From assembly GCA_947095585.1 (NCBI GenBank), contig OX352761.1:87630779-87694778 (forward strand): 64,000 nt of DNA, written 5' to 3'. A model generated the notes under the pieces. It made no database searches, was not told the DNA's origin, and saw only the letters and a program-made list of their open reading frames with translations. This document shows, piece by piece, positions 25,568 through 64,000 of this stretch (the stretch's first letter is position 1; each line of letters opens with the position of its first letter). Source of the DNA: Nephrocerus scutellatus. Its lineage: Eukaryota; Arthropoda; Insecta; Diptera; Pipunculidae. Both the position numbers and the translations under genes were made by a program.

Positions 25568-25743
25568 AGAGCAATCACACTATTACGCTTGAATTCCATT
25601 GCGGATAACTTTTTTCTGAATATTTCCCACTAAAATGCTTTTGTACGCTTGTATACAATGGAATGAACTGTCATTAGTGTAAATTTGAGCGCTGGTTTGA
25701 CAGCAATGACAGTCTGAAGTTGGTAACAATTAGTGTCAGTCAC
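24723..25743 (-). mobile_element. maT-like (Tc1/mariner) element nested in mariner
   Basis: Opposite in orientation to the host mariner and placed between its second-Asp motif and its C-terminus. It encodes a distinct transposase with NPRRSGRKMAREANIALERM and the NKQNDRIYLPGRS signature of maT-type (DD37D) elements. Its own terminal repeats are not obvious, so the exact ends are inferred from where mariner coding stops and resumes. Confidence 0.65.
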
Positions 25744-36981: not shown

Positions 36982-37124
36982 TTTTATACATAATTTTTAA
37001 ATAAAATACAAATTTTATAAAAAAATACACAGAATTCATTTATTTTCATTTCAGAACAAGTAATATAATAAAAAAAATTAGTTAATTCAGTCATCAAATA
37101 AAAAAAAATAAGAAAAATTTAAAT

Positions 37125-38079
37125 TTAAAGAATTTCGTTTTCTTCAATGTTTGCAATATGCATAGCATCTTGCAATATATCTTGTAAATGCAAAGGAGCA
37201 GGTGATTTAGTTGGTATACTGGCTTGAATTATTATTTTTTTAAACTGTGATTGTTGAATAAATCTATTTGGTTGAACATAAATTCCTGATGATGACGATG
37301 ATGTTGAACAAGGTGAAAATGAGGTTAAAGGGCAAGCTATTGACGTGGTAATTGTGAATTATGTACGCGGATTCTCATATTAGTTAGCAGCTGATGAATT
37401 TCCCCCATACATCGGATTGCATGAATTTGCGGTACTTGCCGTATCTGATCAGGTATACGGATTCCACAAATGTGCTGAACTGATCTCTAGCCGGTTCGGA
37501 ATTAACGGATGAAATAAATTTATTTAATGCCTCATCAAAATTGATGTTTTCATTTTGATTGGAGGTTTTTCCTTTTTTTCTTGATGGTGGATTCCTTTCG
37601 AGCCGATCGGGATCTTCAATGTTACTTTCTTCGGAATATTCTAGTGATTGGGTTGATACTTCAGACATAGGCGAATCACTTGTGTTTGCATCTAAATTCT
37701 ATAAACAAAAATAAAACATAAACACATTATGTATCATAATTTTTATTATGTAAAATAATGAAAAACCTTACATTTAAATTGCTTTGGCTTTTCCTATAAA
37801 CTATACAAGGATCAAGAAAACTCATAGCTGTAAAATAGAACAGGTTACTTTCTATAATCTCTTCCAAACCGGCTCCAGATTTTTTTGAGTTTAAAATTTT
37901 CTTTTTTTCAGCTGTATATGCGGTACGAAGATTTTTTCGTCCATTTTCATATCAGCCGCTATTTTGCGATACGCACTATTTTTAATATCAGTGCGCCTGA
38001 TTAGTTTGGAATTGATATTCCATAAACATTCATGCTCCTTGTAGTGGCTTATTAATTCAATAACCTGTCTATCATTCAC
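37125..38079 (-). pseudogene. Harbinger MADF protein, original locus
   Basis: Exon 1 (38,079 downward) encodes a MADF domain: MNDRQVIELISHYKEHECLW, then NINSKLIRRTDIKNSAYRKI. A small deletion near 37,935 shifts the frame after DMKMDE. The intron runs from GTAAGG to TTTATAG, and exon 2 opens NLDANTSDSPMSE. Exon 2 is Ser/Glu/Pro-rich, with FDEALNKFISSVNSEPARDQ (possibly a BESS-like interaction motif), and ends LHLQDILQDAMHIANIEENE, then IL and a stop at 37,125. It has further shifts near 37,360-37,460. Such proteins bind DNA and help the transposase reach the nucleus. The natural C-terminus is visible only here, because in the array it is replaced after ILQD. Confidence 0.7.
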
Positions 38080-38554
38080 TTTTGGTAAAAAATTAAAATT
38101 AACAAAATTAAAAATTTATTAAACAATCGACAACTATTGCACGAATCACAATAAAAAGAAAATGAGGCCATTTTTATTTCGAGGAAATGTCAACATATTG
38201 TATACCATCAAGTTATGCCGAGATTGTATACCGTGATGTTAGTATTGATGTTAGTTTGATGGTATTGCGTGTCTCCACTAGCAAACTGTTCTAAAATTAA
38301 TGGTAGAACTCAATCAGTCAGCATCGAGCGCTCAACACGAGCACATCTTTAAAGATCCCGCACCATATCGCTCAACTACCTGCTACCGGCAACGGAAAAA
38401 AAAACCATCTCACCAAAAAGCGAGCATTTCGCTACCTGCGACTTTTGAAAATATTTAGCTTCACTAATTACTTTTTAATTTCAGGCACATATTTAAAATT
38501 AATAGTCATTTAATTTCAGATCAAGTTTTTTCATTTTCCAGCCCTAAAAAATTG

Positions 38555-40032
38555 GTAAAAAACAGAAAAGGAAGGAAAAAGTCAACGAGGTCTTATCCTT
38601 AATTAAGGAACAAATCACCAACCATGGTGGGGATTTCCTCTCGTCATTGTACGAAAGGCTGGATGAAGTCAACCAGCTTTGCGAGGAATCAGCTACCTCT
38701 GTAGAGGAGAGCATGAGCGTATGCAATGAATCGGACACTGAAGTGCCCGTGTCCAGCAGTGGTGGAGAGGATAACTCCAGCGACGAAGACAGTCGCAAAG
38801 CTTGGTCTACTCCCGAAACCATGCCCGCAAAGGCAAAAAAAAGGAGGTTTTCTGGAAATTCCAGACCATCATCTCCACCAACATCATCTTCTCCTGCAGT
38901 GGCTGCTGTTGATAAAAAATTGCTGTTGATAAAACAGCTATACCAAAAGAGTCCCAAAAGGTCTCAAATAAGAAGGCACCACCACCAGTCGCTCCGTCAA
39001 GCCAAAAATCCCAAACGACGGGACCAACAGCAAAACCTTTTCTCATGCCGCCAATAGTCTGCTTCAGACTAAACGTCGCTGAACTATCAAAGTTCACGAA
39101 GAGCGCCAACATTAGTTGCAGAATTCGCAACATCAACAGCAACAAATCAGTCGTTACGCCCATGAACAGAGATGGCCATCAGCTAATTCGGTCTTTCCTA
39201 CAATCGGGAAAGACTGAATTTAGCTGCAAAGGAGGACAGGAAAGAAATGTTGGTCCTAAAAGGTATTCACGACTCCTTTGATGCTGAAGATGTCAAGGAA
39301 GCGTTGACGACAGAGGGTGTCCCTGTACTAGTGGTGAAACCCTTCAAATCTCAAAGGACTGACAAGAAATTTATTCATTTCATTGTCGAGCTAGAGAAGA
39401 ACTGCGATAAAGCGGCAGTTTGCTCAAAAACCCTCCTTTTGAACCAGTTGGTGCATTGGGAAAAACTCAAATCGGCGGGCATTACTCAATGCAGAAACTG
39501 CCAAAAATTTGGACATGTCGCAAGTAATTGCGGCATGAAATACAGATGCGCCAAGTGCAAAGACGAGCACTTGCCTGGCCAATGCCCAAGAAATGCAGAC
39601 AATATAAAAGACGACAACGTTTTCTGCACAAACTGCCAGAAAAATGGACATCCTGCAGACTATAAAGGATGTCCAAAATATAAGGAAAAGATGGCTGAAA
39701 AGCTTAAAACCGCACAAAAGAAGAAGGAACAACATAAATTCGCCCAGATGTCTGCTTCAAAAGCCATAGTAAAGGGAGTAAGTTTTGCTAGTATAGCTGC
39801 TATGGGGACTTCCAGCAAGCCAGCAACGATCAGCAAGCCTCTAACAAGGAGCCATGCAGCATAAAACAGCAAACCAATAAAAAAGCCAGCCGTTAAACCT
39901 GTACCATCTACCAGAAAAGCCAACATCTTCGACGATACGGAGAGGCTATTTGGAGCTGACCTCTTCACAATTTTACAGAAGGCAAGAGAAGTCGTTTTGG
40001 GTCGACTTATTTGTGAATTATGTTCACAATAA
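38555..40032 (+). pseudogene. LINE ORF1, unit 1
   Basis: The start codon is lost (AATTGG in place of AATGGG at about 38,552). A frameshift follows the VAAVDKK region (about 38,918), and an 8-nt deletion follows KTEF (about 39,221). The frame from 39,247 is open for 205 codons and carries the full set of knuckles: CRNCQKFGHVASNC, CAKCKDEHLPGQC and CTNCQKNGHPADYKGC (CX2CX4HX4C, CX2CX3HX4C, CX2CX4HX6C), typical of Jockey-type gag. A TAA follows SHAA at 39,862. The 45-nt PANYSSLDDRSKTTV block is absent. Confidence 0.75.
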
Positions 40033-42004
40033 GCAGGATAAGTATATTCTCATATAATGTGAATTCCATTTATTCGTTAGCCAGGCGTATCACACTAACA
40101 TTATTTATTAAAACTAATAAACCTGACATTCTTCTTTTACAGGAAACAAATCTCACTGGGAGAAATCCTTTCAGTCCAGACGGATACAATATCCACAGGT
40201 TCAACAAAGGCAGTAGACGCTCTGGGACGGCGGTCCTTATCAGGAACACTATGGCAGGCGAAAAGGTCGAAATTAGTGGTCTACGTAGCATGGAAGCAAC
40301 AGCTGTCAACATTAAAGTCAACGAAGTGGAGACCTTGCTGGTGATATCGGTGTACAATCACTGTAACGCAACGAGGGAAGACATCCAACGGGATTTGCAA
40401 ACTTTCTGCAACACCTCCTCTAGACACATATACTGTGTTGTTGGAGGTGATTTAAATGCTAAACATACTCGATGGCAGGACGAAGTGTGCAATCACAAGG
40501 GAAGGGTCATTACAGACTGGATGGACTCAAATCCGCATCAGCACACGATGGCTATAGTTTCACAGCTCCGAAAGACGTACCCTCGGACACCGTCAACTCT
40601 GGATTTCTTTCTGGCAACCACAAATTTCTTAAATATTCTCCCAGAATTAAGAAATTATTCCTGCTTGGCGCATGATAGCGACTCGGATCATATGGCCATA
40701 GAGCTTCGAGTGAGGCTGAACCAGCGAATTGCACAAGTCACCCCAACACCTGAACTTCACATCAACTTTAAGAAAATAAACTGGAACTGGTTTAGATCAG
40801 AAGTTGAAGCTGAACTTCCTAATCCAGCGGCTTGCAGAAATCTGGAGAATACAGAAATTGATGTAGCTATCAGAAATTTTGAGATTACAGTGAATTCAGC
40901 CATTGATCGGCAGAAAACAATTCGCACTAGCAGGGATCGCTTTCAACACTTGCCTGAGCATATACAGGCCATATATGCTCACAAGCAACGGCTTAGGAAA
41001 CGCCTTCAGAGAATCTTCATTAGGACACTTAACGCAGTCAACGACGAATACCCTTCTATACTTTCGCAACTGTGTTGTACAGTTAACATGTGTCGTCAAG
41101 CTGTGCGGAGGTTTCAGGAAGATGAACTGACCAAACGGCTCCAGGACATCAAACCAGGCCCTGATGCTTTTAGGAAGCTGAACTCTCTGGTTGGAAAGCG
41201 TATTTCCATTCCAGAGATTATCACCATTGAAGATCGAACAGTATCCAGCGCTGTTGAAAAAGCGGAAGCCTTTGCCTGCCATTTTGAAAGGAGCTTTACG
41301 GACCGACCACCAACGCATCTTCCAGATTTCTTGTAAGAGGTTGAAAGTCTTGTGGAAGACACCACTTCTCCAGGAAATACTATAGTGCAGTTCAGTGAAG
41401 AAAATCACGCCAACGCACCTGTAGACGTCGATATGTTTACCGGAACAGCTGTTGTCAATGATTTGATTATGAGTGGAAACTCAAAAAAATCATCAGGCAC
41501 AGATTGGATTTCTAAATTTTTGCTTAAAAAGTTACCGGGTATGGCAATTTTGATGTTAACCATCATTTTCAACAATTGCCTAAACAATGGCTACTTTGCG
41601 GACAACTGGAAGGTGGCAAGGTAGTACCAGTACCCAAGAAAACTGACCGCTCCAGCGTAACTGGTTACCGTCCAATAGCTCTACTGTGTTGTATCAGTAA
41701 AGTATTGGAATCATTGATCCGTAAAAAGATCAATACGTTTTGTACGGAAAGAAATCTTATTCCTTCCTTTCAGTACGGTTTCCGAGAGAAGCACTCTACG
41801 CTGCACCCTCTGCTGAAGCTTCACAGTGACGTCACTAAAGGACTGAACGTCAAAAGTAGTACAGTGGCCTGTTTGCTAGACATCGGAAAAGCTTTCGATA
41901 GTGTCTTGATAAACGGGCTACTGTACAAGCTTTTTAGTTTTGGTTTCCCCAATTATATTGTAAAAATAATTAAAAATTTTCTTTTTAACAGGGTCTTCTT
42001 TGTA
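40020..42004 (+). pseudogene. LINE ORF2, unit 1 (endonuclease + partial RT)
   Basis: The best-preserved ORF2 in the array: 438 codons open from the ATG at 40,020. A complete APE endonuclease is present (FSYNVNSIYS, LLLQETNL, CVVGGDLNAKHTRW, STLDFFLATT, SDSDHMAIEL), then the linker up to TAA at 41,334. A single missing base near 41,620 (WKVAR-stop) shifts the RT fingers. RT continues VTGYRPIALLCCISKVLESL, FQYGFREKHSTLHPL and LLDIGKAFDSVL, where Glu-to-Gly and Trp-to-Leu changes are unique to this unit. It is cut at NRVFFVH before the GVPQGS and YxDD blocks, so no catalytic palm centre exists. Confidence 0.8.
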
Positions 42005-42121
42005 CATCTTGCAATATATCTTTTAAATGCAAAGAAGCAGGTGATTTAGTTGGTGTACTGGCTTGAATTATTATTTTTTTAAACGGTGATTGTTGAATAA
42101 ATCTATTTGGTTGAACATAAA

Positions 42122-42842
42122 TTAAATTAATAGCAGCTGATGAATTTCCCCCATACATCGGATTGCATGAATTTCCGGTACTTGCCGTAACTGATCAGGT
42201 ACAGATTCCACAAATGTGCTGAACTGATCTCTAGCCGGTTCGGAATTAACGGATGAAATAAATTTATTTAATGCCTCATCAAAATTGATGTTTTCATTTT
42301 GATTGGAGGTTTTTCCTTTTTTTCTTGATGGTGGATTCCTTTCGAGCCGATCGGGATCTTCAATGTTACTTTCTTCGGAATATTCTAGTGATTGGGTTGA
42401 TTCTTCAGACATAGGCTAATTACTTGTGTTTGCATCTAAATTCTATAAACAAAAATAAAACATCAACACATTATGTACTATAATTTTTATTATGTAAAAT
42501 AATGAAAAAAAATACATTTAAATTGCTTTGGCTTTTCCTATAAACTATACAAGGATCAAGAAAACTCAAAGCTGTAAAATAGAACAGGCTACTTTCTATA
42601 GTCTCTTCCAAGCCGGCTCCAGATTTTTTGAGTTTAAAATTTTCTTTTTTTCGGCTGTATACGCGGTACGAAGATTTTTTTTTTTTTTTAATAATCTCCT
42701 CGTCCATTTTCATAGCAGCCGCTATTTTGCGATACGCATTATTTTTAATATCAATGCGCCTGAATAGTTTGGAATTGATATTCCATAAACATTTATGCTC
42801 CTTGTAGTGGCTTATTAATTCAATGACCTGTTTATCATTCAT
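42122..42842 (-). pseudogene. MADF gene, unit 2 (deleted)
   Basis: Exon 1 (from 42,842) has the MADF start but two compensating shifts around an expanded T/A run (42,677-42,690) that scramble the middle of the domain. Exon 2 lacks about 100 bp, which removes the Ser-rich and C-terminal coding part. The only clearly broken MADF copy among units 2-5. Confidence 0.7.
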
Positions 42843-43276
42843 TTATTAAACAATCGACAACTATTGCACGAATCACAATAAAAAGAAAATGAGGCCATTT
42901 TTATTTCGAGGAAATGTCAACATATTGTATACCATCAAGTTATGCCGAGATTGTATACCGTGATGTTAGTATTGATGTTAGTTTGATGGTATTGCGTGTC
43001 TCCACTAGCAAACTGTTATAAAATTAATGGTAGAACTCAATCAGTCAGCATCGAGCGCTCAACACGAGCACATCTTTAAAGATCCCGCACCAGATCGCTC
43101 AGCTACCTGCTACCGGCAACGAAAAAAAAACCATCTCACCAAAAAGCGAGCATTTCGCTACCTGCGACTTTTGAAAATATTTAACTTCACTATTTACTTT
43201 TTAATTTCAGGCACATATTTAAAATTAATAGTCATTTAATTTCAGATCAAGTTTTTTCATTTTCCAGCCCTAAAAA

Positions 43277-44416
43277 ATGGCTAAAACACAGAAAAGGAAG
43301 GAAAAAGTCAACGAGGTCTTATCCTTAATTAAGGAACAAATCACCAACCATGGTGGGGATTTCCTCTCGTCATTGTACGAAAGGCTGGATGAAGTCAACC
43401 AGCTTTGCGGGGAATCAGCTACCTCTGTAGAGGAGAGCATGAGCGTATGCAATGAATCGGACACTGAAGTGCCCGTGTCCAGCAGTGGTGGAGAGGATAA
43501 CTCCAGCGACGAAGACAGTCGCAAAGCTGGGTCTTCTCCCGAAACCATGCCCGCAAAGGCAAAAAAAAGGAGGTTGTCTGGAAATTCCAGACCATCATCG
43601 CCACCAACATCATCTTCTCCTGCAGTGGCTGCTGTTGTTAAAAAAATTACTGTTGATAAAACAGCTATACCAAAAGAGTCCCAAAAGGTCTCAAATAAGA
43701 AGGCACCACCACCAGTCGCTCCAACAAGCCAAAAATCCCAAACTACAGGACCAACAGCAAAACCTTTTGCCATACCGCCAATAGTCTGCTTCAGACTAAA
43801 CGTCGCTGAACTATCAAAGTTCACGAAGAGCGCCAACATTAGTTGCAGAATTCGCAACATCAACAGCAACAAATCAGTCGTTACGCCCATGAACAGAGAT
43901 GGCCATCAGCTAATTCGGTCTTTCCTACAATCGGGAAAGACTGAATTTAACACTTATACTGCAAAGGAGGACAGGAAAGAAATGTTGGTCCTAAAAGGTA
44001 TTCACCACTCCTTTGATGCTGAAGATGTCAAGGAAGCGTTGACGATAGAGGGTGTCCCTGTACTAGTGGTGAAACCCTTCAAATCTCAAAGGACTGACAA
44101 GAAATTTAATCATTTCATTGTCGAGCTAGAGAAGAACTGCGATAAAGCGGCAGTTTGCTCAAAAACCCTCCTTTTGAACCAGTGGGTGCATTGGGAAAAA
44201 CTCAAATCGGCGGGCATTACTCAATGCAGAAACTGCCAAAAATTTGGACATGTTGCAAGTAATTGCGGCATGAAATACAGATGCGTCAAATGCAAAGACG
44301 AGCACTTGCCTGGCCAATGCCCAAGAAATGCAGACAATATAAAAGACGACAAAGTTTTCTGCACAAACTGCCAGAAAAATGGACATCCTGCAAACTATAA
44401 AGGATGTCCAAAATAA
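43277..44416 (+). CDS. LINE ORF1, unit 2 (379 aa, C-terminally cut)
   Basis: Open from the ATG at 43,277 (AAAAAATGG context). A Lys-rich start is followed by an acidic Ser-rich stretch (about residues 45-90) and a basic AKAKKRRLSG patch. Then comes a Pro/Lys linker and an RNA-binding-like region (about 170-290: VCFRLNVAELSKFTKSANIS, MLVLKGIHHSFDAEDV, KKFNHFIVELEKNC). Three zinc knuckles lie at about 315-377 (CRNCQKFGHVASNC, CVKCKDEHLPGQC, CTNCQKNGHPANYKGC). A 25-nt deletion makes a stop right after GCPK; relatives go on for about 120 residues, which continue here in another frame (44,404-44,787). It could still encode an RNA-binding protein. Confidence 0.7.
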   Translation: MAKTQKRKEKVNEVLSLIKEQITNHGGDFLSSLYERLDEVNQLCGESATSVEESMSVCNESDTEVPVSSSGGEDNSSDEDSRKAGSSPETMPAKAKKRRLSGNSRPSSPPTSSSPAVAAVVKKITVDKTAIPKESQKVSNKKAPPPVAPTSQKSQTTGPTAKPFAIPPIVCFRLNVAELSKFTKSANISCRIRNINSNKSVVTPMNRDGHQLIRSFLQSGKTEFNTYTAKEDRKEMLVLKGIHHSFDAEDVKEALTIEGVPVLVVKPFKSQRTDKKFNHFIVELEKNCDKAAVCSKTLLLNQWVHWEKLKSAGITQCRNCQKFGHVASNCGMKYRCVKCKDEHLPGQCPRNADNIKDDKVFCTNCQKNGHPANYKGCPK

Positions 44417-44774
44417 AAACCGCACAAAAGAAGAAGGAACAACATAAATTCGCCCAGATGTCTGCTTCAAAAGCCATAGTAAAGGGAGTAAGTTTTGCTA
44501 GTATAGCTGCTATGGGGACGTCCAGCAAGCCAGCAACGATCAGCAAGCCTCTAACAAGGAGCCATGCAGCATCAAACAGCAAACCAATAAAAAAGCCAGC
44601 CGTTAAACCTGTACCATCTACCGGAAAAGCCAACATCTTCGACGATACGGAAAGGCTATTTGGAGCTGACCTATTCACAATTTTACAGAAGGCAAGAGAA
44701 GTCGTGCCTGCTAATTATAGCAGTCTTGATGACAGGTCCAAAACAACCGTTTTGAGTCGACTTATTTGTGAACT

Positions 44775-46764
44775 ATGTTTACAATAAGCAGGATAAGTAT
44801 ATTCTCATATAATGTGAATTCCATTTATTCGTTAGCTGGGCGTATCACACTAACATTATTTATTAAAACTAATAAACCTGACATTCTTCTTTTACAGGAA
44901 ACAAATCTCACTGGGAGAAATCCTTTCAGTCCAGACGGATTCAATATCCACAGGGTCAACAAAGGCAGTGGACGCTCTGGGACGGCGGTCCTTATCAGGA
45001 ACACTATGGCAGGCGAAAAGGTCCAAATTAGTGGTCTACGTAGCATGGAAGCAACAGCTGTCAGCATTAAAGTCATCGAAGTGGAGACCTTGCTGGTGAT
45101 ATCGGTGTACAATCACTGTAACGTAACGAGGGAAGACATCCAACGGGATTTGCAAACTGTCTGCAACACCTCCTCTAGACACACATACTGTGTTGTTGGA
45201 GGTGATTTTAATGCTAAACATACTCGATGGCGAACGAAGTGGAAGTGTGGAATCACAAGGGAAGGGTCATTACAGACTGGATGGACTCAAATCCGCATCA
45301 GCACACGATGGCTATAGTTTCACAGCTCCGAAAGACGTACCCTCGGACACCGTCAACTCTGGATTTCTTTCTGGCAACCACAAATTTCTTAAATATTTTC
45401 CCAGAATTAAGAAATTATTCCTGCTTGGCGCATGATAGCGACTCGGATCATATGGCCATAGAGCTTCGAGTGAGGCTGGACCAGCGAATTGTGCAAGTCA
45501 CCCCAACACCTGAACTTCAAATAAACTTTAAGAAAATAAACTGGAACTGGTTTAGATCAGAAGTTGAAGCTGAACTTCCTAATCCAGCGGCTTGCAGAAA
45601 TCTGGAGAACACAGAAATTGATGTAGCTATCAGAAATTTTGAGATTACAGTGAATTCAGCCATTGATCGGCAGAAAACAATTCGCACTAGCAGGGATCGC
45701 TTCCAACACTTGCCTGAGCATATACAGGCCATATATGCTCACAAGCAACGGCTTAGGAATCGCCTTCAGAGAATCTTCATTAGGACACTTAACGCAGTCA
45801 ACGACGAATACCTGTCTATACTTTCGCAACTGTGTTGTACAGTTAACATGTGTCGTCAAGCTGTGCGGAGGTTTCAGGAAGATGAACTGACCAAACGGCT
45901 CCAGGACATCAAACCAGGCCCTGATGCTTTTAGGAAGCTGAACTCTCTGGTTGGAAAGCGTATTTCCATTCCAGAGATTATCACCATTGAAGATCGAACA
46001 GTATCCAGCGCTGTTGAAAAAGCGGAAGCCTTTGCCTGCCATTTTGAAAGGAGCTTTACGGACCGACCACCAACGCATCTTCCAGATTTCTTGTAAGAGG
46101 TTGAAAGTCTTGTGGAAGACACCACTTCTCCAGGAAATACTATAGTGCAGTTCAGTGAAGAAAATCACGCCAACGCACCTGTAGACGTCGATATGTTTAC
46201 CGGAACAGCTGTTGTCAATGATTTGATTATGAGTGGAAACTCAAAAAAATCATCAGGCACAGATTGGATTTCTAACTTTTTGCTTAAAAAGTTACCGGGT
46301 ATGGCAATTTTGATGTTAACCATCATTTTCAACAATTGCCTAAACAATGGCTACTTAGCGGACAACTGGAAGGTGGCAAGGTAGTACCAGTACCCAAAAA
46401 AACTGACCGCTCCAGCGTAACTGGTTACCGTCCAATAGCTCTACTGTGATGTATAAGTAAAGTATTGGAATCATTGATCCGTAAAAAGATCAATACGTTT
46501 TGTACGGAAAGAAATCTTATTCCTTCCTTTCAGTACGGTTTCCGAGAGAAGCACTCTACGCTGCACCCTCTGCTGAAGCTTCACAGTGACGTCACTAAAG
46601 GACTGAACGTCAAAAGTAGTACAGTGGCCTGTTTGCTAGACATCGAAAAAGCTTTCGATAGTGTCTGGATAAACGGGCTACTGTACAAGCTTATTAGTTT
46701 TGGTTTCCCCAATTATATTGTAAAAATAATTAAAAATTTTCTTTTTAACAGGGTCTTCTTTGTA
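44775..46764 (+). pseudogene. LINE ORF2, unit 2
   Basis: Opens at 44,775, overlapping the ORF1-frame stop by 13 nt. The endonuclease frame shifts just after GGDFNAKHTRW (1-nt loss plus a GAAGTG duplication near 45,232) and carries on in the frame 45,227-46,096 with STLDFFLATT and SDSDHMAIEL. TAA after LPDFL, the WKVAR-stop shift and a TGA at 46,447 (IALL-stop, where unit 1 has Cys) follow. RT is cut after FNRVFFV. No functional enzyme. Confidence 0.8.
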
Positions 46765-47699
46765 CATCTTGCAATATATCTTTTAAATGCAAAGGAGCAG
46801 GTGATTTAGTTGGTGTACTGGCTTGAATTATTATTTTTTTAAACGGTGATTGTTGAATAAATCTATTTGGTTGAACATAAATTCCTGATGATGACGATGA
46901 TGTTGAACAAGGTGAACATGAGGGTAAAGGGCAAGCTATTGACGTGGTAATTGTGGAATTATGTACGCGGATTCTCATATTAGTTAGCAACTGATGAATT
47001 TCCCCCATACATCGGATTGCATGAATTTCCAGTACTTGCCGTAACTGATCAGCTACGGATTCCACAAATGTGCTGAACTGATCTCTAGCCGGTTCGGAAT
47101 TAACGGATGAAATAAATTTATTTAATGCCTCATCAAAATTGATGTTTTCATTTTGATTGGAGGTTTTTCCTTTTTTTCTTGATGGTGGATTCCTTTCGAG
47201 CCGATCGGGATCTTCAATGTTACTTTCTTCGGAATATTCTAGTGATTGGGTTGATTCTTCAGACATAGGCGAATCACTTGTGTTTGCATCTATATTCTAT
47301 ATACAAAAATAAAACATCAACACATTATGTACTATAATTTTAATTATGTAAAATAATGAAAAAAATTACATTTAAATTGCTTTGGCTTTTCCTATAAACT
47401 ATACAAGGATCAAGAAAACTCAAAGCTGTAAAATAGAACAGGCTACTTTCTATAATCTCTTCCAAGCCGGCTCCAGATTTTTTTGAGTTTAAAATTTTAT
47501 TTTTTTCGGCTGTATACGCGGTACGAAGATTTTTTATTTTTTTTTTAATAATCTCCTCGTCCATTTTCATATCAGCCGCTATTTTGCGATACGCATTATT
47601 TTTAATATCAGTGCGCCTGAATAGTTTGGAATTGATATTCCATAAACATTTATGCTCCTTGTAGTGGCTTATTAATTCAATGACCTGTTTATCATTCAT
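46745..47699 (-). CDS. MADF-domain protein with LINE-derived C-terminus, unit 3
   Basis: Exon 1 is 47,370-47,699 (110 codons): a full MADF domain (MNDKQVIELISHYKEHKCLW, KNNAYRKIAADMKMDEEIIK, NLRTAYTAEKNK, SSLFYFTALSFL). The intron 47,297-47,369 runs GTAATT to TATATAG. Exon 2 is 46,745-47,296, in phase: NIDANTSDSPMSEE, KKGKTSNQN, FDEALNKFISSVNSEPARDQ, a Ser-rich stretch, then LHLKDILQD. After ILQD the natural tail is replaced by VQRRPC and a stop, read from antisense LINE DNA across the unit joint. Spliced length is about 293 residues with no stop. MADF proteins bind DNA. Whether it is expressed is unknown. Confidence 0.65.
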
Positions 47700-48141
47700 T
47701 TTTGGTAAAAAATTAAAAATTTATTAAACAATCGACAACTATTGCACGAATCACAATAAAAAGAAAATGAGGCCATTTTTATTTCGAGGAAATGTCAACT
47801 TATTGTATACCATCAAGTTATGCCGAGATTGTATACCGTGATGTTAGTTTGATGGTATTGCGTGTCTCCACTAGCAAACTGTTCTAAAATTAATGGTAGA
47901 ACTCAATCAGTCAGCATCGAGCGCTCAACACGAGCACATCTTTAAAGATCCCGCACCAGATCGCTCAGCTACCTGCTACCGGCAACGGAAAAAAACCATC
48001 TCACCAAAAAGCGAGCATTTCGCTACCTGCGACTTTTGAAAATATTTAGCTTCACTAATTACTTTTTAATTTCAGGCACATATTTAAAATTAATAGTCAT
48101 TTAATTTCAGATCAAGTTTTTTCATTTTCCAGCCCTAAAAA

Positions 48142-49281: not shown

Positions 49282-49639
49282 AAACCGCACAAAAGAAGAA
49301 GGAACAACATAAATTCGCCCAGATGTCTGCTTCAAAAGCCATAGTAAAGGGAGTAAGTTTTGCTAGTATAGCTGCTATGGGGACGTCCAGCAAGCCAGCA
49401 ACGATCAGCAAGCCTCTAACAAGGAGCCATGCAGCATCAAACAGCAAACCAATAAAAAAGCCAGCCGTTAAACCTGTACCATCTACCGGAAAAGCCAACA
49501 TCTTCGACGATACGGAAAGGCTATTTGGAGCTGACCTATTCACAATTTTACAGAAGGCAAGAGAAGTCGTGCCTGCTAATTATAGCAGTCTTGATGACAG
49601 GTCCAAAACAACCGTTTTGAGTCGACTTATTTGTGAACT

Positions 49640-52564: not shown

Positions 52565-52999
52565 TTTTGGTAAAAAATTAAAAATTTATTAAACAATCGA
52601 CAACTATTGCACGAATCACAATAAAAAGAAAATGAGGCCATTTTTATTTCGAGGAAATGTCAACTTATTGTATACCATCAAGTTATGCCGAGATTGTATA
52701 CCGTGATGTTAGTTTGATGGTATTGCGTGTCTCCACTAGCAAACTGTTCTAAAATTAATGGTAGAACTCAATCAGTCAGCATCGAGCGCTCAACACGAGC
52801 ACATCTTTAAAGATCCCGCACCAGATCGCTCAGCTACCTGCTACCGGCAACGGAAAAAAAACCATCTCACCAAAAAGCGAGCATTTCGCTACCTGCGACT
52901 TTTGAAAATATTTAGCTTCACTAATTACTTTTTAATTTCAGGCACATATTTAAAATTAATAGTCATTTAATTTCAGATCAAGTTTTTTCATTTTCCAGC
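52565..52999. promoter_or_regulatory. Predicted divergent control region between MADF gene and LINE (unit 4; same in others)
   Basis: About 430 bp separates the MADF ATG (minus) from the LINE ORF1 start site (plus). It holds the Harbinger right end with its GTATACCATCAAG and GTATACCGTGATG repeats and the LINE 5' UTR from 52,773. LINE promoters of this superfamily are usually internal at the 5' end, so transcripts should leave in both directions. No TATA box is obvious. Equivalent intervals: 38,080-38,554, 42,843-43,276, 47,700-48,141, 57,210-57,643, 61,803-62,251. Confidence 0.4.
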
Positions 53000-54297
53000 C
53001 CTAAAAAATTGGTAAAAAATGAAAAAGGAAGGAAAAAGTCAACGAGGTCTTATCCTTAATTAAGGAACAAATCACCAACCATGGTGGGGATTTCCTCTCG
53101 TCATTGTACGAAAGGCTGGATGAAGTCAACCAGCTTTGCGAGGAATCAGCTACCTCTGTAGAGGAGAGCATGAGCGTATGCAATGAATCGGACACTGAAG
53201 TGCCCGTGTCCAGCAGTGGTGGAGAGGATAACTCCAGCGACGAAGACCAAAAATCCCAAACTACGGGACCAACAGCAAAACCTTTTGCCATGCTGCCAAT
53301 AGTCTGCTTCAGACTAAACGTCGCTGAACTATCAAAGTTCACGAAGAACGCCAACATTCGTTGCAGAATTCGCAACATCAACAGCAACAAATCAGTCGTT
53401 ACGCCCATGAACAGAGATGGCCATCAGCTAATTCGGTCTTTCCTACAATCGGGAAAGACTGAATTTAACTGCAAAGGAGGACAGGAAAGAAATGTTGGTC
53501 CTAAAAGGTATTCACCACTCCTTTGATGCTGAAGATGTCAAGGAAGCGTTGACGATAGAGGGTGTCCCTGTACTAGTGGTGAAACCCTTCAAATCTCAAA
53601 GGACTGACAAGAAATTTAATCATTTCATTGTCGAGCTAGAGAAGAACTGCGATAAAGCGGCAGTTTGCTCAAAAACCCTCCTTTTGAACCAGTGGGTGCA
53701 TTGGGAAAAACTCAAATCGGCGGGCATTACTCAATGCAGAAACTGCCAAAAATTTGGACATGTTGCAAGTAATTGCGGCATGAAATACAGATGCGTCAAA
53801 TGCAAAGACGAGCACTTGCCTGGCCAATGCCCAAGAAATGCAGACAATATAAAAGACGACAAAGTTTTCTGCACAAACTGCCAGAAAAATGGACATCCTG
53901 CAAACTATAAAGGATGTCCAAAATAAAAACCGCACAAAAGAAGAAGGAACAACATAAATTCGCCCAGATGTCTGCTTCAAAAGCCATAGTAAAGGGAGTA
54001 AGTTTTGCTAGTATAGCTGCTATGGGGACGTCCAGCAAGCCAGCAACGATCAGCAAGCCTCTAACAAGGAGCCATGCAGCATCAAACAGCAAACCAATAA
54101 AAAAGCCAGCCGTTAAACCTGTACCATCTACCGGAAAAGCCAACATCTTCGACGATACGGAAAGGCTATTTGGAGCTGACCTATTCACAATTTTACAGAA
54201 GGCAAGAGAAGTCGTGCCTGCTAATTATAGCAGTCTTGATGACAGGTCCAAAACAACCGTTTTGAGTCGACTTATTTGTGAACTATGTTTACAATAA
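53000..54297 (+). pseudogene. LINE ORF1, unit 4 (mosaic, three deletions)
   Basis: The original ATG is replaced (AATTGG). The 71-codon basic/Pro segment between NSSDED and QKSQTTGP is deleted in frame at 53,247. The 8-nt deletion at about 53,469 shifts the frame, which reopens at 53,492 with the knuckles. The lineage-A 25-nt deletion at 53,924 then stops it. It combines lesions from both lineages. Confidence 0.75.
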
Positions 54298-56274
54298 GCA
54301 GGATAAGTATATTCTCATATAATGTGAATTCCATTTATTCGTTAGCTGGGCGTATCACACTAACATTATTTATTAAAACTAATAAACCTGACATTCTTCT
54401 TTTACAGGAAACAAATCTCACTGGGAGAAATCCTTTCAGTCCAGACGGATTCAATATCCACAGGGTCAACAAAGGCAGTGGACGCTCTGGGACGGCGGTC
54501 CTTATCAGGAACACTATGGCAGGCGAAAAGGTCCAAATTAGTGGTCTACGTAGCATGGAAGCAACAGCTGTCAGCATTAAAGTCATCGAAGTGGAGACCT
54601 TGCTGGTGATATCGGTGTACAATCACTGTAACGTAACGAGGGAAGACATCCAACGGGATTTGCAAACTTTCTGCAACACCTCCTCTAGACACACATACTG
54701 TGTTGTTGGAGGTGATTTTAATGCTAAACATACTCGATGGCGAACGAAGTGGAAGTGTGGAATCACAAGGGAAGGGTCATTACAGACTGGATGGACTCAA
54801 ATCCGCATCAGCACACGATGGCTATAGTTTCACAGCTCCGAAAGACGTACCCTCGGACACCGTCAACTCTGGATTTCTTTCTGGCAACCACAAATTTCTT
54901 AAATATTTTCCCAGAATTAAGAAATTATTCCTGCTTGGCGCATGATAGCGACTCGGATCACATGGCCATAGAGCTTCGAGTGAGGCTGGACCAGCGAATT
55001 GTGCAAGTCACCCCAACACCTGAACTTCAAATAAACTTTAAGAAAATAAACTGGAACTGGTTTAGATCAGAAGTTGAAGCTGAACTTCCTAATCCAGCGG
55101 CTTGCAGAAATCTGGAGAACACAGAAATTGATGTAGCTATCAGAAATTTTGAGATTACAGTGAATTCAGCCATTGATCGGCAGAAAACAATTCGCACTAG
55201 CAGGGATCGCTTCCAACACTTGCCTGAGCATATACAGGCCATATATGCTCACAAGCAACGGCTTAGGAATCGCCTTCAGAGAATCTTCATTAGGACACTT
55301 AACGCAGTCAACGACGAATACCTGTCTATACTTTCGCAACTGTGTTGTACAGTTAACATGTGTCGTCAAGCTGTGCGGAGGTTTCAGGAAGATGAACTGA
55401 CCAAACGGCTCCAGGACATCAAACCAGGCCCTGATGCTTTTAGGAAGCTGAACTCTCTGGTTGGAAAGCGTATTTCCATTCCAGAGATTATCACCATTGA
55501 AGATCGAACAGTATCCAGCGCTGTTGAAAAAGCGGAAGTCTTTGCCTGCCATTTTGAAAGGAGCTTTACGGACCGACCACCAACGCATCTTCCAGATTTC
55601 TTGTAAGAGGTTGAAAGTCTTGTGGAAGACACCACTTCTCCAGGAAATACTATAGTGCAGTTCAGTGAAGAAAATCACGCCAACGCACCTGTAGACGTCG
55701 ATATGTTTACCGGAACAGCTGTTGTCAATGATTTGATTATGAGTGGAAACTCAAAAAAATCATCAGGCACAGATTGGATTTCTAACTTTTTGCTTAAAAA
55801 GTTACCGGGTATGGCAATTTTGATGTTAACCATCATTTTCAACAATTGCCTAAACAATGGCTACTTAGCGGACAACTGGAAGGTGGCAAGGTAGTACCAG
55901 TACCCAAAAAAACTGACCGCTCCAGCGTAACTGGTTACCGTCCAATAGCTCTACTGTGATGTATAAGTAAAGTATTGGAATCATTGATCCGTAAAAAGAT
56001 CAATACGTTTTGTACGGAAAGAAATCTTATTCCTTCCTTTCAGTACGGTTTCCGAGAGAAGCACTCTACGCTGCACCCTCTGCTGAAGCTTCACAGTGAC
56101 GTCACTAAAGGACTGAACGTCAAAAGTAGTACAGTGGCCTGTTTGCTAGACATCGAAAAAGCTTTCGATAGTGTCTGGATAAACGGGCTACTGTACAAGC
56201 TTATTAGTTTTGGTTTCCCCAATTATATTGTAAAAATAATTAAAAATTTTCTTTTTAACAGGGTCTTCTTTGTA
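54285..56274 (+). pseudogene. LINE ORF2, unit 4
   Basis: Lineage-A type, essentially as unit 3: endonuclease frame 54,285-54,827, shift after HTRW, second frame 54,737-55,606, then the truncated RT frame 55,975-56,274. The catalytic centre of RT is absent. Confidence 0.8.
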
Positions 56275-57209
56275 CATCTTGCAATATATCTTTTAAATGC
56301 AAAGGAGCAGGTGATTTAGTTGGTGTACTGGCTTGAATTATTATTTTTTTAAACGGTGATTGTTGAATAAATCTATTTGGTTGAACATAAATTCCTGATG
56401 ATGACGATGATGTTGAACAAGGTGAACATGAGGGTAAAGGGCAAGCTATTGACGTGGTAATTGTGGAATTATGTACGCGGATTCTCATATTAGTTAGCAA
56501 CTGATGAATTTCCCCCATACATCGGATTGCATGAATTTCCAGTACTTGCCGTAACTGATCAGCTACGGATTCCACAAATGTGCTGAACTGATCTCTAGCC
56601 GGTTCGGAATTAACGGATGAAATAAATTTATTTAATGCCTCATCAAAATTGATGTTTTCATTTTGATTGGAGGTTTTTCCTTTTTTTCTTGATGGTGGAT
56701 TCCTTTCGAGCCGATCGGGATCTTCAATGTTACTTTCTTCGGAATATTCTAGTGATTGGGTTGATTCTTCAGACATAGGCGAATCACTTGTGTTTGCATC
56801 TATATTCTATATACAAAAATAAAACATCAACACATTATGTACTATAATTTTAATTATGTAAAATAATGAAAAAAATTACATTTAAATTGCTTTGGCTTTT
56901 CCTATAAACTATACAAGGATCAAGAAAACTCAAAGCTGTAAAATAGAACAGGCTACTTTCTATAATCTCTTCCAAGCCGGCTCCAGATTTTTTTGAGTTT
57001 AAAATTTTATTTTTTTCGGCTGTATACGCGGTACGAAGATTTTTTATTTTTTTTTTAATAATCTCCTCGTCCATTTTCATATCAGCCGCTATTTTGCGAT
57101 ACGCATTATTTTTAATATCAGTGCGCCTGAATAGTTTGGAATTGATATTCCATAAACATTTATGCTCCTTGTAGTGGCTTATTAATTCAATGACCTGTTT
57201 ATCATTCAT
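56255..57209 (-). CDS. MADF-domain protein with LINE-derived C-terminus, unit 5
   Basis: Exon 1 is 56,880-57,209 and exon 2 is 56,255-56,806. The sequence is open and apparently the same as in units 3 and 4. Thus three consecutive units keep an undamaged MADF gene while the LINE next to each carries many lesions. This reflects either recent homogenisation or retained function. Confidence 0.65.
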
Positions 57210-57643
57210 TTTTGGTAAAAAATTAAAAATTTATTAAACAATCGACAACTATTGCACGAATCACAATAAAAAGAAAATGAGGCCATTTTTATTTCGAGGA
57301 AATGTCAACTTATTGTATACCATCAAGTTATGCCGAGATTGTATACCGTGATGTTAGTTTGATGGTATTGCGTGTCTCCACTAGCAAACTGTTCTAAAAT
57401 TAATGGTAGAACTCAATCAGTCAGCATCGAGCGCTCAACACGAGCACATCTTTAAAGATCCCGCACCAGATCGCTCAGCTACCTGCTACCGGCAACGGAA
57501 AAAAACCATCTCACCAAAAAGCGAGCATTTCGCTACCTGCGACTTTTGAAAATATTTAGCTTCACTAATTACTTTTTAATTTCAGGCACATATTTAAAAT
57601 TAATAGTCATTTAATTTCAGATCAAGTTTTTTCATTTTCCAGC

Positions 57644-58903
57644 CCTAAAAAATTGGTAAAAAATGAAAAAGGAAGGAAAAAGTCAACGAGGTCTTATCCT
57701 TAATTAAGGAACAAATCACCAACCATGGTGGGGATTTCCTCTCGTCATTGTACGAAAGGCTGGATGAAGTCAACCAGCTTTGCGAGGAATCAGCTACCTC
57801 TGTAGAGGAGAGCATGAGCGTATGCAATGAATCGGACACTGAAGTGCCCGTGTCCAGCAGTGGTGGAGAGGATAACTCCAGCGACGAAGACCAAAAATCC
57901 CAAACTACGGGACCAACAGCAAAACCTTTTGCCATGCTGCCAATAGTCTGCTTCAGACTAAACGTCGCTGAACTATCAAAGTTCACGAAGAACACCAACA
58001 TTCGTTGCAGAATTCGCAACATCAACAGCAACAAATCAGTCGTTACGCCCATGAACAGAGATGGCCATCAGCTAATTCGGTCTTTCCTACAATCGGGAAA
58101 GACTGAATTTAACTGCAAAGGAGGACAGGAAAGAAATGTTGGTCCTAAAAGGTATTCACCACTCCTTTGATGCTGAAGATGTCAAGGAAGCGTTGACGAT
58201 AGAGGGTGTCCCTGTACTAGTGGTGAAACCCTTCAAATCTCAAAGGACTGACAAGAAATTTAATCATTTCATTGTCGAGCTAGAGAAGAACTGCGATAAA
58301 GCGGCAGTTTGCTCAAAAACCCTCCTTTTGAACCAGTGGGTGCATTGGGAAAAACTCAAATCGGCGGGCATTACTCAATGCAGAAACTGCCAAAAATTTG
58401 GACATGTTGCAAGTAATTGCGGCATGAAATACAGATGCGTCAAATGCAAAGACGAGCACTTGCCTGGCCAATGCCCAAGAAATGCAGACAATATAAAAGA
58501 CGACAAAGTTTTCTGCACAAACTGCCAGAAAAATGGACATCCTGCAAACTATAAAGGATGTCCAAAATATAAGGAAAAGATGGCTGAAAAGCTTAAAACC
58601 GCACAAAAGAAGAAGGAACAACATAAATTCGCCCAGATGTCTGCTTCAAAAGCCATAGTAAAGGGAGTAAGTTTTGCTAGTATAGCTGCTATGGGGACTT
58701 CCAGCAAGCCTCTAACAAGGAGCCATGCAGCATCAAACAGCAAACCAATAAAAAAGCCAGCCGTTAAACATGTACCATCTACCGGAAAAGTCAACATCTT
58801 CGACGATACGGAAAGGCTATTTGGAGCTGACCTCTTCACAATTTTACAGAAGGCAAGAGAAGTCGTTTTGGGTCGACTTATTTGTGAATTATGTTCACAA
58901 TAA
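57644..58903 (+). pseudogene. LINE ORF1, unit 5
   Basis: Lost ATG, in-frame 71-codon deletion at 57,891, 8-nt deletion at about 58,113. The frame from 58,136 is open for 255 codons through the three knuckles and on to the true ORF1 C-terminus (MAEKLKTAQKKKEQHKFAQM to RLICELCSQ), minus the 15-codon PANYSSLDDRSKTTV block. It overlaps the ORF2 ATG (58,891) by 13 nt. Confidence 0.75.
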
Positions 58904-60866
58904 GCAGGATAAGTATATTCTCATATAATGTGAATTCCATTTATTCGTTAGCTAGGCGTATCACACTAATATTATTTATTAAAACTAATAAACCTGACAT
59001 TCTTCTTTTACAGGAAACAAATCTCACTGGGAGAAATCCTTTCAGTCCAGACGGATTCAATATCCACAGGGTCAACAAAGGCAGTGGACGCTCTGGGACG
59101 GCGGTCCTTATCAGGACCACTATGGCAGGCGAAAAGGTCCAAATTAGTGGTCTACGTAGCATGGAAGCAACAGCTGTCAGCATTAAAGTCATCGAAGTGG
59201 AGACCTTGCTGGTGATATCGGTGTACAATCACTGTAACGCAACGAGGGAAGACATCCAACGGGATTTGCAAGCTGTCTGCAACACCTCCTCTAGACACAC
59301 ATACTATGTTGTTGGAGGTGATTTTAATGCTAGACATACTCGATGGCGAACGAAGTGTGCAATCACAAGGGAAGGGTCATTACAGACTGGATGGACTCAA
59401 ATCCGCATCAGCACACGATGGCTATAGTTTCACAGCTCCGAAAGACGTACCCTCGGACACCGTCAACTCTGGATTTCTTTCTGGCAACCACAAATTTCTT
59501 AAATATTTTCCCAGAATTAAGAAATTATTCCTGCTTGGCGCATGATAGCGACTCGGATCATATGGCCATAGAGCTTCGAGTGAGGCTGGACCAGCGAATT
59601 GTGCAAGTCACCCCAACACCTGAACTTCAAATAAACTTTAAGAAAATAAACTGGAACTGGTTTAGATCAGAAGTTGAAGCTGAACTTCCTAATCCAGCGG
59701 CTTGCAGAAATCTGGAGAATACAGAAATTGATGTAGCTATCAGAAATTTTGAGATTACAGTGAATTCAGCCATTGATCGGCAGAAAACAATTCGCACTAG
59801 CAGGGATCGCTTCCAACACTTGCCTGAGCATATACAGGCCATATATGCTCACAAGCAACGGCTTAGGAAACGCCTTCAGAGAATCTTCAATAGGACACTT
59901 AACACAGTCAACGACGAATACCTGTCTGTACTTTCGCAACTGCGTTGTACAGTTAACATGTGTCGTCAAGCTGTGCGGAGGTTTCAGGAAGATGAACTGA
60001 CCAAACGGCTCCAGGACATCAAACCAGGCCCTGATGCTTTTAGGAAGCTGAACTCTCTGGTTGGAAAGCGTATTTCCATTCCAGAGATTATCACCATTGA
60101 AGATCGAACAGTATCCAGCGTTGCTGAAAAAGCGGAAGCCTTTGCCTGCCATTTTGAAAGGAGCTTTACGGACCGACCACCAACGCATCTTCCAGATTTC
60201 TTGGAAGAGGTTGAAAGTCTTGTGGAAGACACCACTTCTCCAGGAAATAGAGTTCAGTGAAGAAAATCGCGCCAAAGCAGCTGTAGACGTCGATATGTTT
60301 ACCGGAACAGCTGTTGTCAATGATTTGATTATGAGTGGAAACTCAAAAAAATCATCAGGCACAGATTGGATTTCTAACTTTTTGCTTAAAAAGTTACCGG
60401 GTATGGCAATTTTGATGTTAACCATCATTTTCAACAATTGCCTAAACAATGGCTACTTTGCGGACAACTGGAAGGTGGCAAGGTAGTACCAGTACCCAAA
60501 AAAACTGACCGCTCCAGCGTAACTGGTTACCGTCCAATAGCTCTACTGTGATGTATAAGTAAAGTATTGGAATCATTGATCCGTAAAAAGATCAATACGT
60601 TTTGTACGGAAAGAAATCTTATTCCTTCCTTTCAGTACGGTTTCCGAGAGAAGCACTCTACGCTGCACCCTCTGCTGAAGCTTCACAGTGACGTCACTAA
60701 AGGACTGAACGTCAAAAGTAGTACAGTGGCCTGTTTGCTAGACATCGAAAAAGCTTTCGATAGTGTCTGGATAAACGGGCTACTGTACAAGCTTATTAGT
60801 TTTGGTTTCCCCAATTATATTGTAAAAATAATTAAAAATTTTCTTTTTAACAGGGTCTTCTTTGTA
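58891..60866 (+). pseudogene. LINE ORF2, unit 5
   Basis: The endonuclease frame (58,891-59,427) shifts by one base after GGDFNARHTRW. The second frame (59,343-60,260) is open past LPDFLEEVESLVEDTT, where other units have a stop, and ends at a small deletion near 60,250. The WKVAR-stop shift, the TGA at 60,549 and the truncated RT (60,567-60,866) follow. Confidence 0.8.
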
Positions 60867-61802
60867 CATCTTGCAATATATCTTTTAAATGCAAAGGAGC
60901 AGGTGATTTAGTTGGTGTACTGGCTTGAATTATTATTTTTTTTAACGGTGATTGTTGAATAAATCTATTTGGTTGAACATAAATTCCTGATGATGACGAT
61001 GATGTTGAACAAGGTGAACATGAGGGTAAAGGGCAAGCTATTGACGTGGTAATTGTGGAATTATGTACGCGGATTCTCATATTAGTTAGCAACTGATGAA
61101 TTTCCCCCATACATCGGATTGCATGAATTTCCGGTACTTGCCGTAACTGATCAGCTACGGATTCCACAAATGTGCTGAACTGATCTCTAGCCGGTTCGGA
61201 ATTAACGGATGAAATAAATTTATTTAATGCCTCATCAAAATTGATGTTTTCATTTTGATTGGAGGTTTTTCCTTTTTTTCTTGATGGTGGATTCCTTTCG
61301 AGCCGATCGGGATCTTCAATGTTACTTTCTTCGGAATATTCTAGTGATTGGGTTGATTCTTCAGACATAGGCGAATCACTTGTGTTTGCATCTATATTCT
61401 ATATACAAAAATAAAACATCAACACATTATGTACTATAATTTTTATTATGTAAAATAATGAAAAAAATTACATTTAAATTGCTTTGGCTTTTCCTATAAA
61501 CTATACAAGGATCAAGAAAACTCAAAGCTGTAAAATAGAACAGGCTACTTTCTATAATCTCTTCCAAGCCGGCTCCAGATTTTTTTGAGTTTAAAATTTT
61601 ATTTTTTTCGGCTGTATACGCGGTACGAAGATTTTTTATTTTTATTTTTAATAATCTCCTCGTCCATTTTCATATCAGCCGCTATTTTGCGATACGCATT
61701 ATTTTTAATATCAGTGCGCCTGAATAGTTTGGAATTGATATTCCATAAACATTTATGCTCCTTGTAGTGGCTTATTAATTCAATGACCTGTTTATCATTC
61801 AT
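60847..61802 (-). pseudogene. MADF gene, unit 6 (exon 1 frameshift)
   Basis: Exon 2 (60,847-61,398) is open and ends ILQD-VQRRPC. Exon 1 (from 61,802) has a length change in the T-rich run near 61,632-61,650 that shifts the frame after DEEIIK. Only this homopolymer error separates it from an intact gene, so it should be confirmed against reads. Confidence 0.65.
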
Positions 61803-62251
61803 TTTTGGTAAAAAATTAAAATTAACAAAATTAAAAATTTATTAAACAATCGACAACTATTGCACGAATCACAATAAAAAGAAAATGAGGCCATTTTTAT
61901 TTCGTGGAAATGTCAACATATTGTATACCATCAATTTATGCCGAGATTGTATACCGTGATGTTAGTTTGATGGTATTGCGTGTCTCCACTAGCAAACTGT
62001 TCTAAAATTAATGGTAGAACTCAATCAGTCAGCATCGAGCGCTCAACACGAGCACATCTTTAAAGATCCCGCACCAGATCGCTCAGCTACCTGCTACCGG
62101 CAACGGAAAAAAACCATCTCACCAAAAAGCGAGCATTTCGCTACCTGCGACTTTTGAAAATATTTAGCTTCACTAATTACTTTTTAATTTCAGGCACATA
62201 TTTAAAATTAATAGTCATTTAATTTCAGATCAAGTTTTTTCATTTTCCAGC

Positions 62252-63511
62252 CCTAAAAAATTGGTAAAAAATGAAAAAGGAAGGAAAAAGTCAACGAGGT
62301 CTTATCCTTAATTAAGGAACAAATCACCAACCATGGTGGGGATTTCCTCTCGTCATTGTACGAAAGGCTGGATGAAGTCAACCAGCTTTGCGAGGAATCA
62401 GCTACCTCTGTAGAGGAGAGCATGAGCGTATGCAATGAATCGGACACTGAAGTGCCCGTGTCCAGCAGTGGTGGAGAGGATAACTCCAGCGACGAAGACC
62501 AAAAATCCCAAACTACGGGACCAACAGCAAAACCTTTTGCCATGCTGCCAATAGTCTGCTTCAGACTAAACGTCGCTGAACTATCAAAGTTCACGAAGAA
62601 CGCCAACATTAGTTGCAGAATTCGCAACATCAACAGCAACAAATCAGTCGTTACGCCCATGAACAGAGATGGCCATCAGCTAATTCGGTCTTTCCTACAA
62701 TCGGGAAAGACTGAATTTAACTGCAAAGGAGGACAGGAAAGAAATGTTGGTCCTAAAAGGTATTCACCACTCCTTTGATGCTGAAGATGTCAAGGAAGCG
62801 TTGACGATAGAGGGTGTCCCTGTACTAGTGGTGAAACCCTTCAAATCTCAAAGGACTGACAAGAAATTTAATCATTTCATTGTCGAGCTAGAGAAGAACT
62901 GCGATAAAGCGGCAGTTTGCTCAAAAACCCTCCTTTTGAACCAGTGGGTGCATTGGGAAAAACTCAAATCGGCGGGCATTACTCAATGCAGAAACTGCCA
63001 AAAATTTGGACATGTTGCAAGTAATTGCGGCATGAAATACAGATGCGTCAAATGCAAAGACGAGCACTTGCCTGGCCAATGCCCAAGAAATGCAGACAAT
63101 ATAAAAGACGACAAAGTTTTCTGCACAAACTGCCAGAAAAATGGACATCCTGCAAACTATAAAGGATGTCCAAAATATAAGGAAAAGATGGCTGAAAAGC
63201 TTAAAACCGCACAAAAGAAGAAGGAACAACATAAATTCGCCCAGATGTCTGCTTCAAAAGCCATAGTAAAGGGAGTAAGTTTTGCTAGTATAGCTGCTAT
63301 GGGGACTTCCAGCAAGCCTCTAACAAGGAGCCATGCAGCATCAAACAGCAAACCAATAAAAAAGCCAGCCGTTAAACATGTACCATCTACCGGAAAAGTC
63401 AACATCTTCGACGATACGGAAAGGCTATTTGGAGCTGACCTCTTCACAATTTTACAGAAGGCAAGAGAAGTCGTTTTGGGTCGACTTATTTGTGAATTAT
63501 GTTCACAATAA
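62252..63511 (+). pseudogene. LINE ORF1, unit 6
   Basis: Same set of lesions as unit 5 (lost ATG, 71-codon deletion at 62,499, 8-nt deletion at about 62,721). The frame 62,744-63,511 is open for 255 codons with all three knuckles and the natural C-terminus. Confidence 0.75.
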
Positions 63512-64000
63512 GCAGGATAAGTATATTCTCATATAATGTGAATTCCATTTATTCGTTAGCTAGGCGTATCACACTAATATTATTTATTAAAACTAATAAA
63601 CCTGACATTCTTCTTTTACAGGAAACAAATCTCACTGGGAGAAATCCTTTCAGTCCAGACGGATTCAATATCCACAGGGTCAACAAAGGCAGTGGACGCT
63701 CTGGGACGGCGGTCCTTATCAGGACCACTATGGCAGGCGAAAAGGTCCAAATTAGTGGTCTACGTAGCATGGAAGCAACAGCTGTCAGCATTAAAGTCAT
63801 CGAAGTGGAGACCTTGCTGGTGATATCGGTGTACAATCACTGTAACGCAACGAGGGAAGACATCCAACGGGATTTGCAAGCTGTCTGCAACACCTCCTCT
63901 AGACACACATACTGTGTTGTTGGAGGTGATTTTAATGCTAGACATACTCGATGGCGAACGAAGTGTGCAATCACAAGGGAAGGGTCATTACAGACTGGAT
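63499..64000 (+). pseudogene. LINE ORF2 start, unit 6 (runs off window)
   Basis: Endonuclease N-terminus with LLLQETNLTG and CVVGGDFNARHTRW. The one-base loss after HTRW (CGATGGCGAACG) is already visible at about 63,955. The rest lies outside the window. Confidence 0.7.

Follow-up and report, generated by a model that had tools for sequence, protein, structure and literature searches.

A tandem array founded on a LINE nested in a Harbinger transposon in Nephrocerus scutellatus

Introduction

How do elements of two transposable element (TE) classes come to form one multi-kilobase tandem repeat? The question is raised by a 64,000-nucleotide stretch of DNA from the fly Nephrocerus scutellatus (C1:87630779-87694778 in an assembly of 613 Mb and nine contigs), which is called the window below. 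Its right part is occupied by an array whose unit joins the MADF half of a Harbinger DNA transposon to the 5′ three quarters of a long interspersed nuclear element (LINE). The array continues beyond the window, and features located there are given in window-continued positions (contig position = window-continued position + 87630778). We propose, with a probability of about 0.93, that the locus originated in four steps, namely insertion of the LINE into the Harbinger element, a single duplication within this nest, exchange between the resulting units and later insertions into two of them, and that the array is neutral.

Organization of the Array

Unit boundaries were defined by self-comparison of the window followed by cuts at the joint between the two elements. 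The tandem array has eight units and seven joints, and ends ~30 kb past the window end. The complete units in the window, all read on the + strand, are 4,592–4,865 bp long and start at position 37,167. U1 (37167..42005, 4839 bp) carries the Harbinger MADF half and the LINE 5′ three quarters, and its left edge is continuous with native Harbinger sequence. U2 (42006..46765, 4760 bp) represents a first sequence type (A) and U5 (56276..60867, 4592 bp) a second one (B), while U3 (46766..51630, 4865 bp) and U4 (51631..56275, 4645 bp) are recombinants of the two. U6 (60868..64000, on to window-continued 65475, + strand) is near type B and is cut by the window end. An earlier sequence-only reading of the window, which counted at least five units of 4.6–4.9 kb plus a partial sixth, thus described the unit size and the truncated sixth unit correctly; the array simply runs on outside the window. 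An Rfam scan of the window gave no match.

The host Harbinger element begins in the window, where its left and main part (35396..38313, + strand) extends from the target-site duplication (TSD) to the LINE insertion point. The TSD TAA (35396-35398) is followed by the left terminus CCTTGCATCTCCACCTG, which begins at 35399. The last 26 bp of the element and the matching TAA (at 94500) lie outside the window, at window-continued 94474-94502 (C1:87725252-87725280). A 3-bp TWA target duplication is the defining motif of PIF/Harbinger transposons, and another Harbinger copy of this genome, L014, is flanked on both sides by TTA. The sequence TCTCCACCTG was recognized by eye at both ends of the element; an automatic search for terminal inverted repeats, made without knowledge of the right end, gave a best score inside the shuffled range. 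The two protein features expected of PIF/Harbinger were found by Pfam: a transposase with a DDE_Tnp_4 domain (PF13359, E 5.2e-28; 36201..36887, + strand), which lies outside the repeated unit, and another gene, whose product has a Myb/SANT-like (MADF) domain. This MADF gene lies at 46745..47720 on the − strand (MADF_DNA_bdg, PF10545, E 1.7e-18; open segments 47340-47720 and 46745-47296) and its C-terminus is truncated at the joint. The transposase has 242 homologues among 336 candidates, the best named ones being from Calliphora, Musca and Rhagoletis; proteins named HARBI1 are among the homologues. No homologue of the MADF protein was found at E ≤ 0.001 among 1110 candidates.

The LINE 5′ part in U1 (38314..42006, + strand) corresponds to positions 1-3741 of L019, a full-length reference copy of 4950 bp located elsewhere in the genome. 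Pfam identified, on the + strand, open reading frame (ORF) 1 with CCHC knuckles and ORF2 with an APE endonuclease and a reverse transcriptase, of which the first half is retained in the unit. The sequence-only reading was right that two TE classes are joined; the share of the LINE, given there as two-thirds, is 3,741 of 4,950 bp, about three quarters. The closest full ORF2 found has 972 amino acids and 51% identity, and the array LINE is truncated near residue 665 of this relative, within its reverse transcriptase domain (538-798). A scan of this relative (P0121) detected no RNase H domain. The array LINE is a putative member of the Jockey clade, following the label of the earlier reading.

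A second copy of the array's LINE is found at 12864-15590; it begins at the 5′ end and breaks off at 15432, in ORF2. A few bases further starts a different MADF-like frame, whose PF10545 score of 21.2 bits lies slightly under the 22-bit cut-off. The adjoining segment 15653-15875 (− strand) resembles a Harbinger transposase by eye and has no Pfam match.

Insertion of the LINE into the Harbinger Element

The complete LINE sits in the Harbinger element 26 bp short of its right end and is accompanied by a 12-bp target-site duplication, GGTAGAACTCAA, seen at the LINE 5′ end at 38302..38313 (+ strand). This sequence precedes the LINE in all eight units and follows its 3′ end only once, at window-continued 94462-94473, where the final 26 bp of Harbinger and then TAA come next. 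The unit concerned is the last one, which carries the whole LINE (window-continued 89564-94458, as aligned to L019). The empty site, that is, a Harbinger sequence continuous without the LINE, is present in two other copies of the transposon, L014 on C3 and L012 on C4. The target duplication and these empty sites establish that the LINE inserted into Harbinger. In this first step a complete, endonuclease-bearing LINE of ~4.9 kb entered the transposon and created the 12-bp duplication GGTAGAACTCAA.

The Founding Duplication

A search for the 30-base joint, with three mismatches permitted, identified five exact occurrences in the window and none in 100 shuffles. The first lies at 41991..42020 (+ strand) and the further ones start at 46751, 51616, 56261 and 60853; two more joints are located outside the window, their 24-base cores starting at window-continued 65467 and 80072. 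The joint positions proposed by the sequence-only reading are correct to within 1 bp. So is its claim that the joint is the same between units: all seven joints are identical over the core, with single base changes found farther out in joints 1 and 7. This sameness supports the view that one chimera was amplified and not repeatedly inserted.

At the joint, position 3,741 (of 4,950) of the LINE abuts the middle of the Harbinger MADF gene. Of seven native LINE copies from four places, L018 has TTTGTACATGTG at the breakpoint and the others have TTTGTACAGGTG. The corresponding sequence is CATAGCATCTTG in native Harbinger and TTTGTACATCTTG at the joint. Comparison of these sequences indicates a microhomology of at least 2 bp (CA) common to both parents.

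Both edges of the array are native. Since the MADF protein yielded no homologues, genome copy L014 served to test the left edge. It spans 36056-38314 in one alignment (2333 columns, 89.7% identity), and this single match shows that U1 begins in native sequence. On the right the array is followed in turn by the LINE 3′ end, the second copy of the target site and the Harbinger terminus; a native LINE aligns across this edge as far as the 3′ end. A segment extending from the MADF gene to the LINE reverse transcriptase was thus duplicated, as seen from its products. The second step would have been one break-and-join event, by end joining or template switching at the CA microhomology.

Exchange between Units and Later Insertions

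Gap columns were excluded from all substitution counts. For distances among all units, bases inserted relative to U1-U6 were dropped, as were an out-of-order piece in U7 (77185-77494) and a foreign stretch in U8 (80182-80962). Unit pairs differ by 10–114 substitutions and units carry private insertions or deletions. U1, U7 and U8 stand 1.5–2.5% from every other unit (U1 2.0–2.5% from the others), and the closest pairs are U3-U4 (0.26%) and U5-U6 (0.22%). The description of the array as young therefore suits its newest exchanges, which are 0 to ~0.2% apart, and does not suit U1.

U2 and U5 differ at 64 sites. U3 is of type B on its left and type A on its right, with one breakpoint and no exception among the 64 sites; U4 has the same arrangement with a breakpoint to the right of that of U3 and one exception. 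The minimum number of exceptions in 10,000 shuffles of the site order was 13 for U3 and 15 for U4. Both units are therefore single-breakpoint recombinants of U2 and U5, as predicted under unequal crossing-over. On their left sides they are indistinguishable from U5 (0 differences in 1368 positions for U3, 0 in 1718 for U4). Two sites in the A part are common to U3 and U4 and unlike U1, U2 and U5 (pattern ‘00110’), which fits a derivation of U4 from U3. The left half of U7 resembles U6 and its right half is divergent.

The mosaic pattern is observed directly. The process behind it, the third step, would be a swap of misaligned units by unequal crossing-over and/or gene conversion. Denoting by B/A a unit of type B on the left and type A on the right, a pair A, B may have become A, B/A, B and then A, B/A, B/A′, B; gene conversion could supply single steps of this course. 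U7 would have become B/older, giving the present eight units.

In the fourth step, inserts with terminal repeats subsequently split U7 and U8. U7 is interrupted by an 8.3-kb insert (window-continued 66534-74829) whose 1341-bp terminal direct repeats are 100% identical, and U8 by a 7.7-kb insert with 422-bp terminal repeats of 97.6% identity. For both, there is a 4-bp overlap between the matches on either side of the insertion point, as left by long terminal repeat (LTR) elements. By their structure the two inserts are probably LTR elements, and that of U7 is a recent LTR-type insertion.

Coding State of the Array

Within the window, all six units have a broken ORF1, and all five that reach the joint there have a broken ORF2. 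A crude ratio of nonsynonymous to synonymous substitution rates (dN/dS) ranges, on small counts, from 0.58 to 1.43 in the eight comparisons with differences (nine were made). The two MADF segments are both open in U3-U5 only, out of six units examined; U1, U2 and U6 each have one or both of them broken. Selection on the open MADF frame was considered and is not supported: U3-U5 share one identical stretch and do not represent three independent cases. The array is most likely neutral and without evident function. With the frames broken and these dN/dS values, the gene-amplification locus suggested by the sequence-only reading finds no backing.

Alternative Origins

Selected amplification, in which the MADF gene or LINE transcription would benefit either host or elements, for instance by supplying small RNAs, has in its favor the open MADF segments of U3-U5 and the presence of a LINE 5′ end in each unit. 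It is very unlikely, as the identity of U3-U5 in MADF is most simply the outcome of recent exchange, the MADF C-terminus is cut, and the LINE frames are in the state described above. Even less probable is an origin through a circle or rolling-circle copying, in which a single unit would have been amplified as extrachromosomal circular DNA and then reinserted. A reinserted multimer would likewise give identical head-to-tail joints, but both edges of the array are the native flanks of one nested pair, so that a homology-based return of the circle into its own source would be needed. Moreover, the stepwise mosaics U3 and U4 and the divergence of up to 2.5% indicate that the units do not all come from one recent burst. 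A search of the joint against viral contigs gave no match and is uninformative.

Haplotype switches can produce mosaics and the analysis rests on an assembly, in which the assembler might have copied or mis-stitched a single nested element. This is again less probable: unit pairs differ by 10–114 substitutions and there are private insertions and deletions, and separate units hold two inserts with terminal repeats of unequal length and 4-bp overlaps. Least credible of all, to the point of being negligible, are independent insertions of a chimeric mobile element. Both parent families are mobile and have other copies in the genome; against this stand one joint sequence found seven times, units that directly follow each other, and the confinement to this locus of all seven joint-spanning matches among the 50 listed (40 of 1435 candidates scored). 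Repeated insertion of the chimera was rejected on the identity of the joints.

The origin by nesting, a single duplication and exchange faces difficulties of its own. U8 continues past the breakpoint into native LINE sequence but lacks 30 bp spanning it (window-continued 93220-93260, L011); the deletion is absent from all seven native LINE copies, and such a loss exactly at the founding breakpoint is not required by the simple model. The out-of-order piece of U7 (304 bp) and the ~780 foreign bases of U8 are further rearrangements outside this model. Deletions of 8 bp and 45 bp group U1 with U5/U6, though most substitutions separate it from them, so that a simple chain understates the complexity of the exchanges. 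Finally, as read from one assembly, the mosaics could partly be assembly or haplotype switches.

Related Arrays and Significance

The sequence-only reading held that neither element alone makes such arrays, which is contradicted by two other loci of the same genome. At C4:54.76 Mb (L012-L013) an array with a period of 2613 bp and ~98% identity is formed mostly by a deleted Harbinger element, which covers 2285 of the 2613 bp of one unit. At C1:44.08-44.10 Mb (L016-L017) an internally deleted LINE is repeated, several copies being 3456–3468 bp long and ~98% identical; the LINE covers 3231 of the 3463 bp of one unit and the last (rightmost) copy keeps the native LINE 3′ end. No LINE match was found at the C4 array and no Harbinger match at the C1:44.08-44.10 Mb array, in 40 kb examined for each. 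These loci share with the nest array the LINE and Harbinger families and the multi-kilobase head-to-tail arrangement, and the LINE array also its retained 3′ end. They differ in that each holds a single one of the two elements and, besides it, other sequence: 328 bp of the 2613-bp C4 unit and 232 bp of the 3463-bp C1:44 Mb unit are not covered.

The window contains further repeats. A 1360-bp element occurs as a head-to-tail pair (24853-26212 and 26223-27582) with 10 bp between the copies and one base different. It has a transposase-like ORF, Tc1-like by eye, with no Pfam family above the cut-off, and the pair is either another tandem duplication or an assembler doubling. A 122-bp minisatellite of 3.8 copies lies at 4001-4459, and two inverted copies (96% identity) of part of another reverse transcriptase element lie at 7561-8636 and 29661-30762.

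Duplicated nests have precedents. The elements invader1 and Dm88 are LTR elements. They form a nest within the tandem alpha-beta repeat at Hsp70 87C of D. melanogaster, and tandem duplication was called sufficient for the region (Bergman et al. 2006, PMC1794594). The present locus is similar in being a two-TE nest tandemly duplicated at one site; unlike the alpha-beta repeat, which lies between heat-shock genes, it consists of a LINE in a DNA transposon, and it still displays its founding site, the joint and, on either side, the native edge. The jockey+Rt1c tandem clusters of D. melanogaster HDR1 (PMC1794594) are likewise described there as arrays of clustered elements from different families, including a jockey LINE; they differ in being interrupted by other insertions and accompanied by gene duplicates, and the legend names no DNA transposon in the repeat unit. 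Microhomology end joining and unequal crossing-over are named as routes to tandem arrays in reviews (PMC12628747, PMC9659126), whose models of TE-derived satellites, in the sections concerned, deal mostly with single-element monomers, with one passage on nested insertions; here the unit has two elements and there are eight units. No array of a LINE plus Harbinger was described in the literature searched, which comprised titles and abstract openings, with most subscription papers outside its scope.

With one element inside another and an empty site elsewhere, identical joints and native flanks at both edges, the nest array is a new and unusually legible case of a known type, duplicated TE nests being known from Drosophila. 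It is not a large satellite: a satellite is a long array of many homogenized units, and here eight units up to 2.5% apart occupy one locus, so that the earlier label “satellite-like” fits weakly. The array is possibly the seed of a satellite. Objects of this type are nothing unusual in a TE-rich genome.

The three arrays of two families, the Tc1-like-looking pair and the 30-bp deletion of U8 at the founding breakpoint suggest a wider reading, which we regard as doubtful: the genome may repeatedly make tandem arrays from single TE insertions through recurrent break-and-join at TE loci, this locus being the stepwise start of a satellite. The beginnings of satellites are usually inferred from old, homogenized arrays. 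Here the empty site, the insertion, the single joint, the native edges and the successive products of exchange are all legible at one locus, so that a model in which unequal crossing-over follows end joining becomes directly checkable by comparison of strains.

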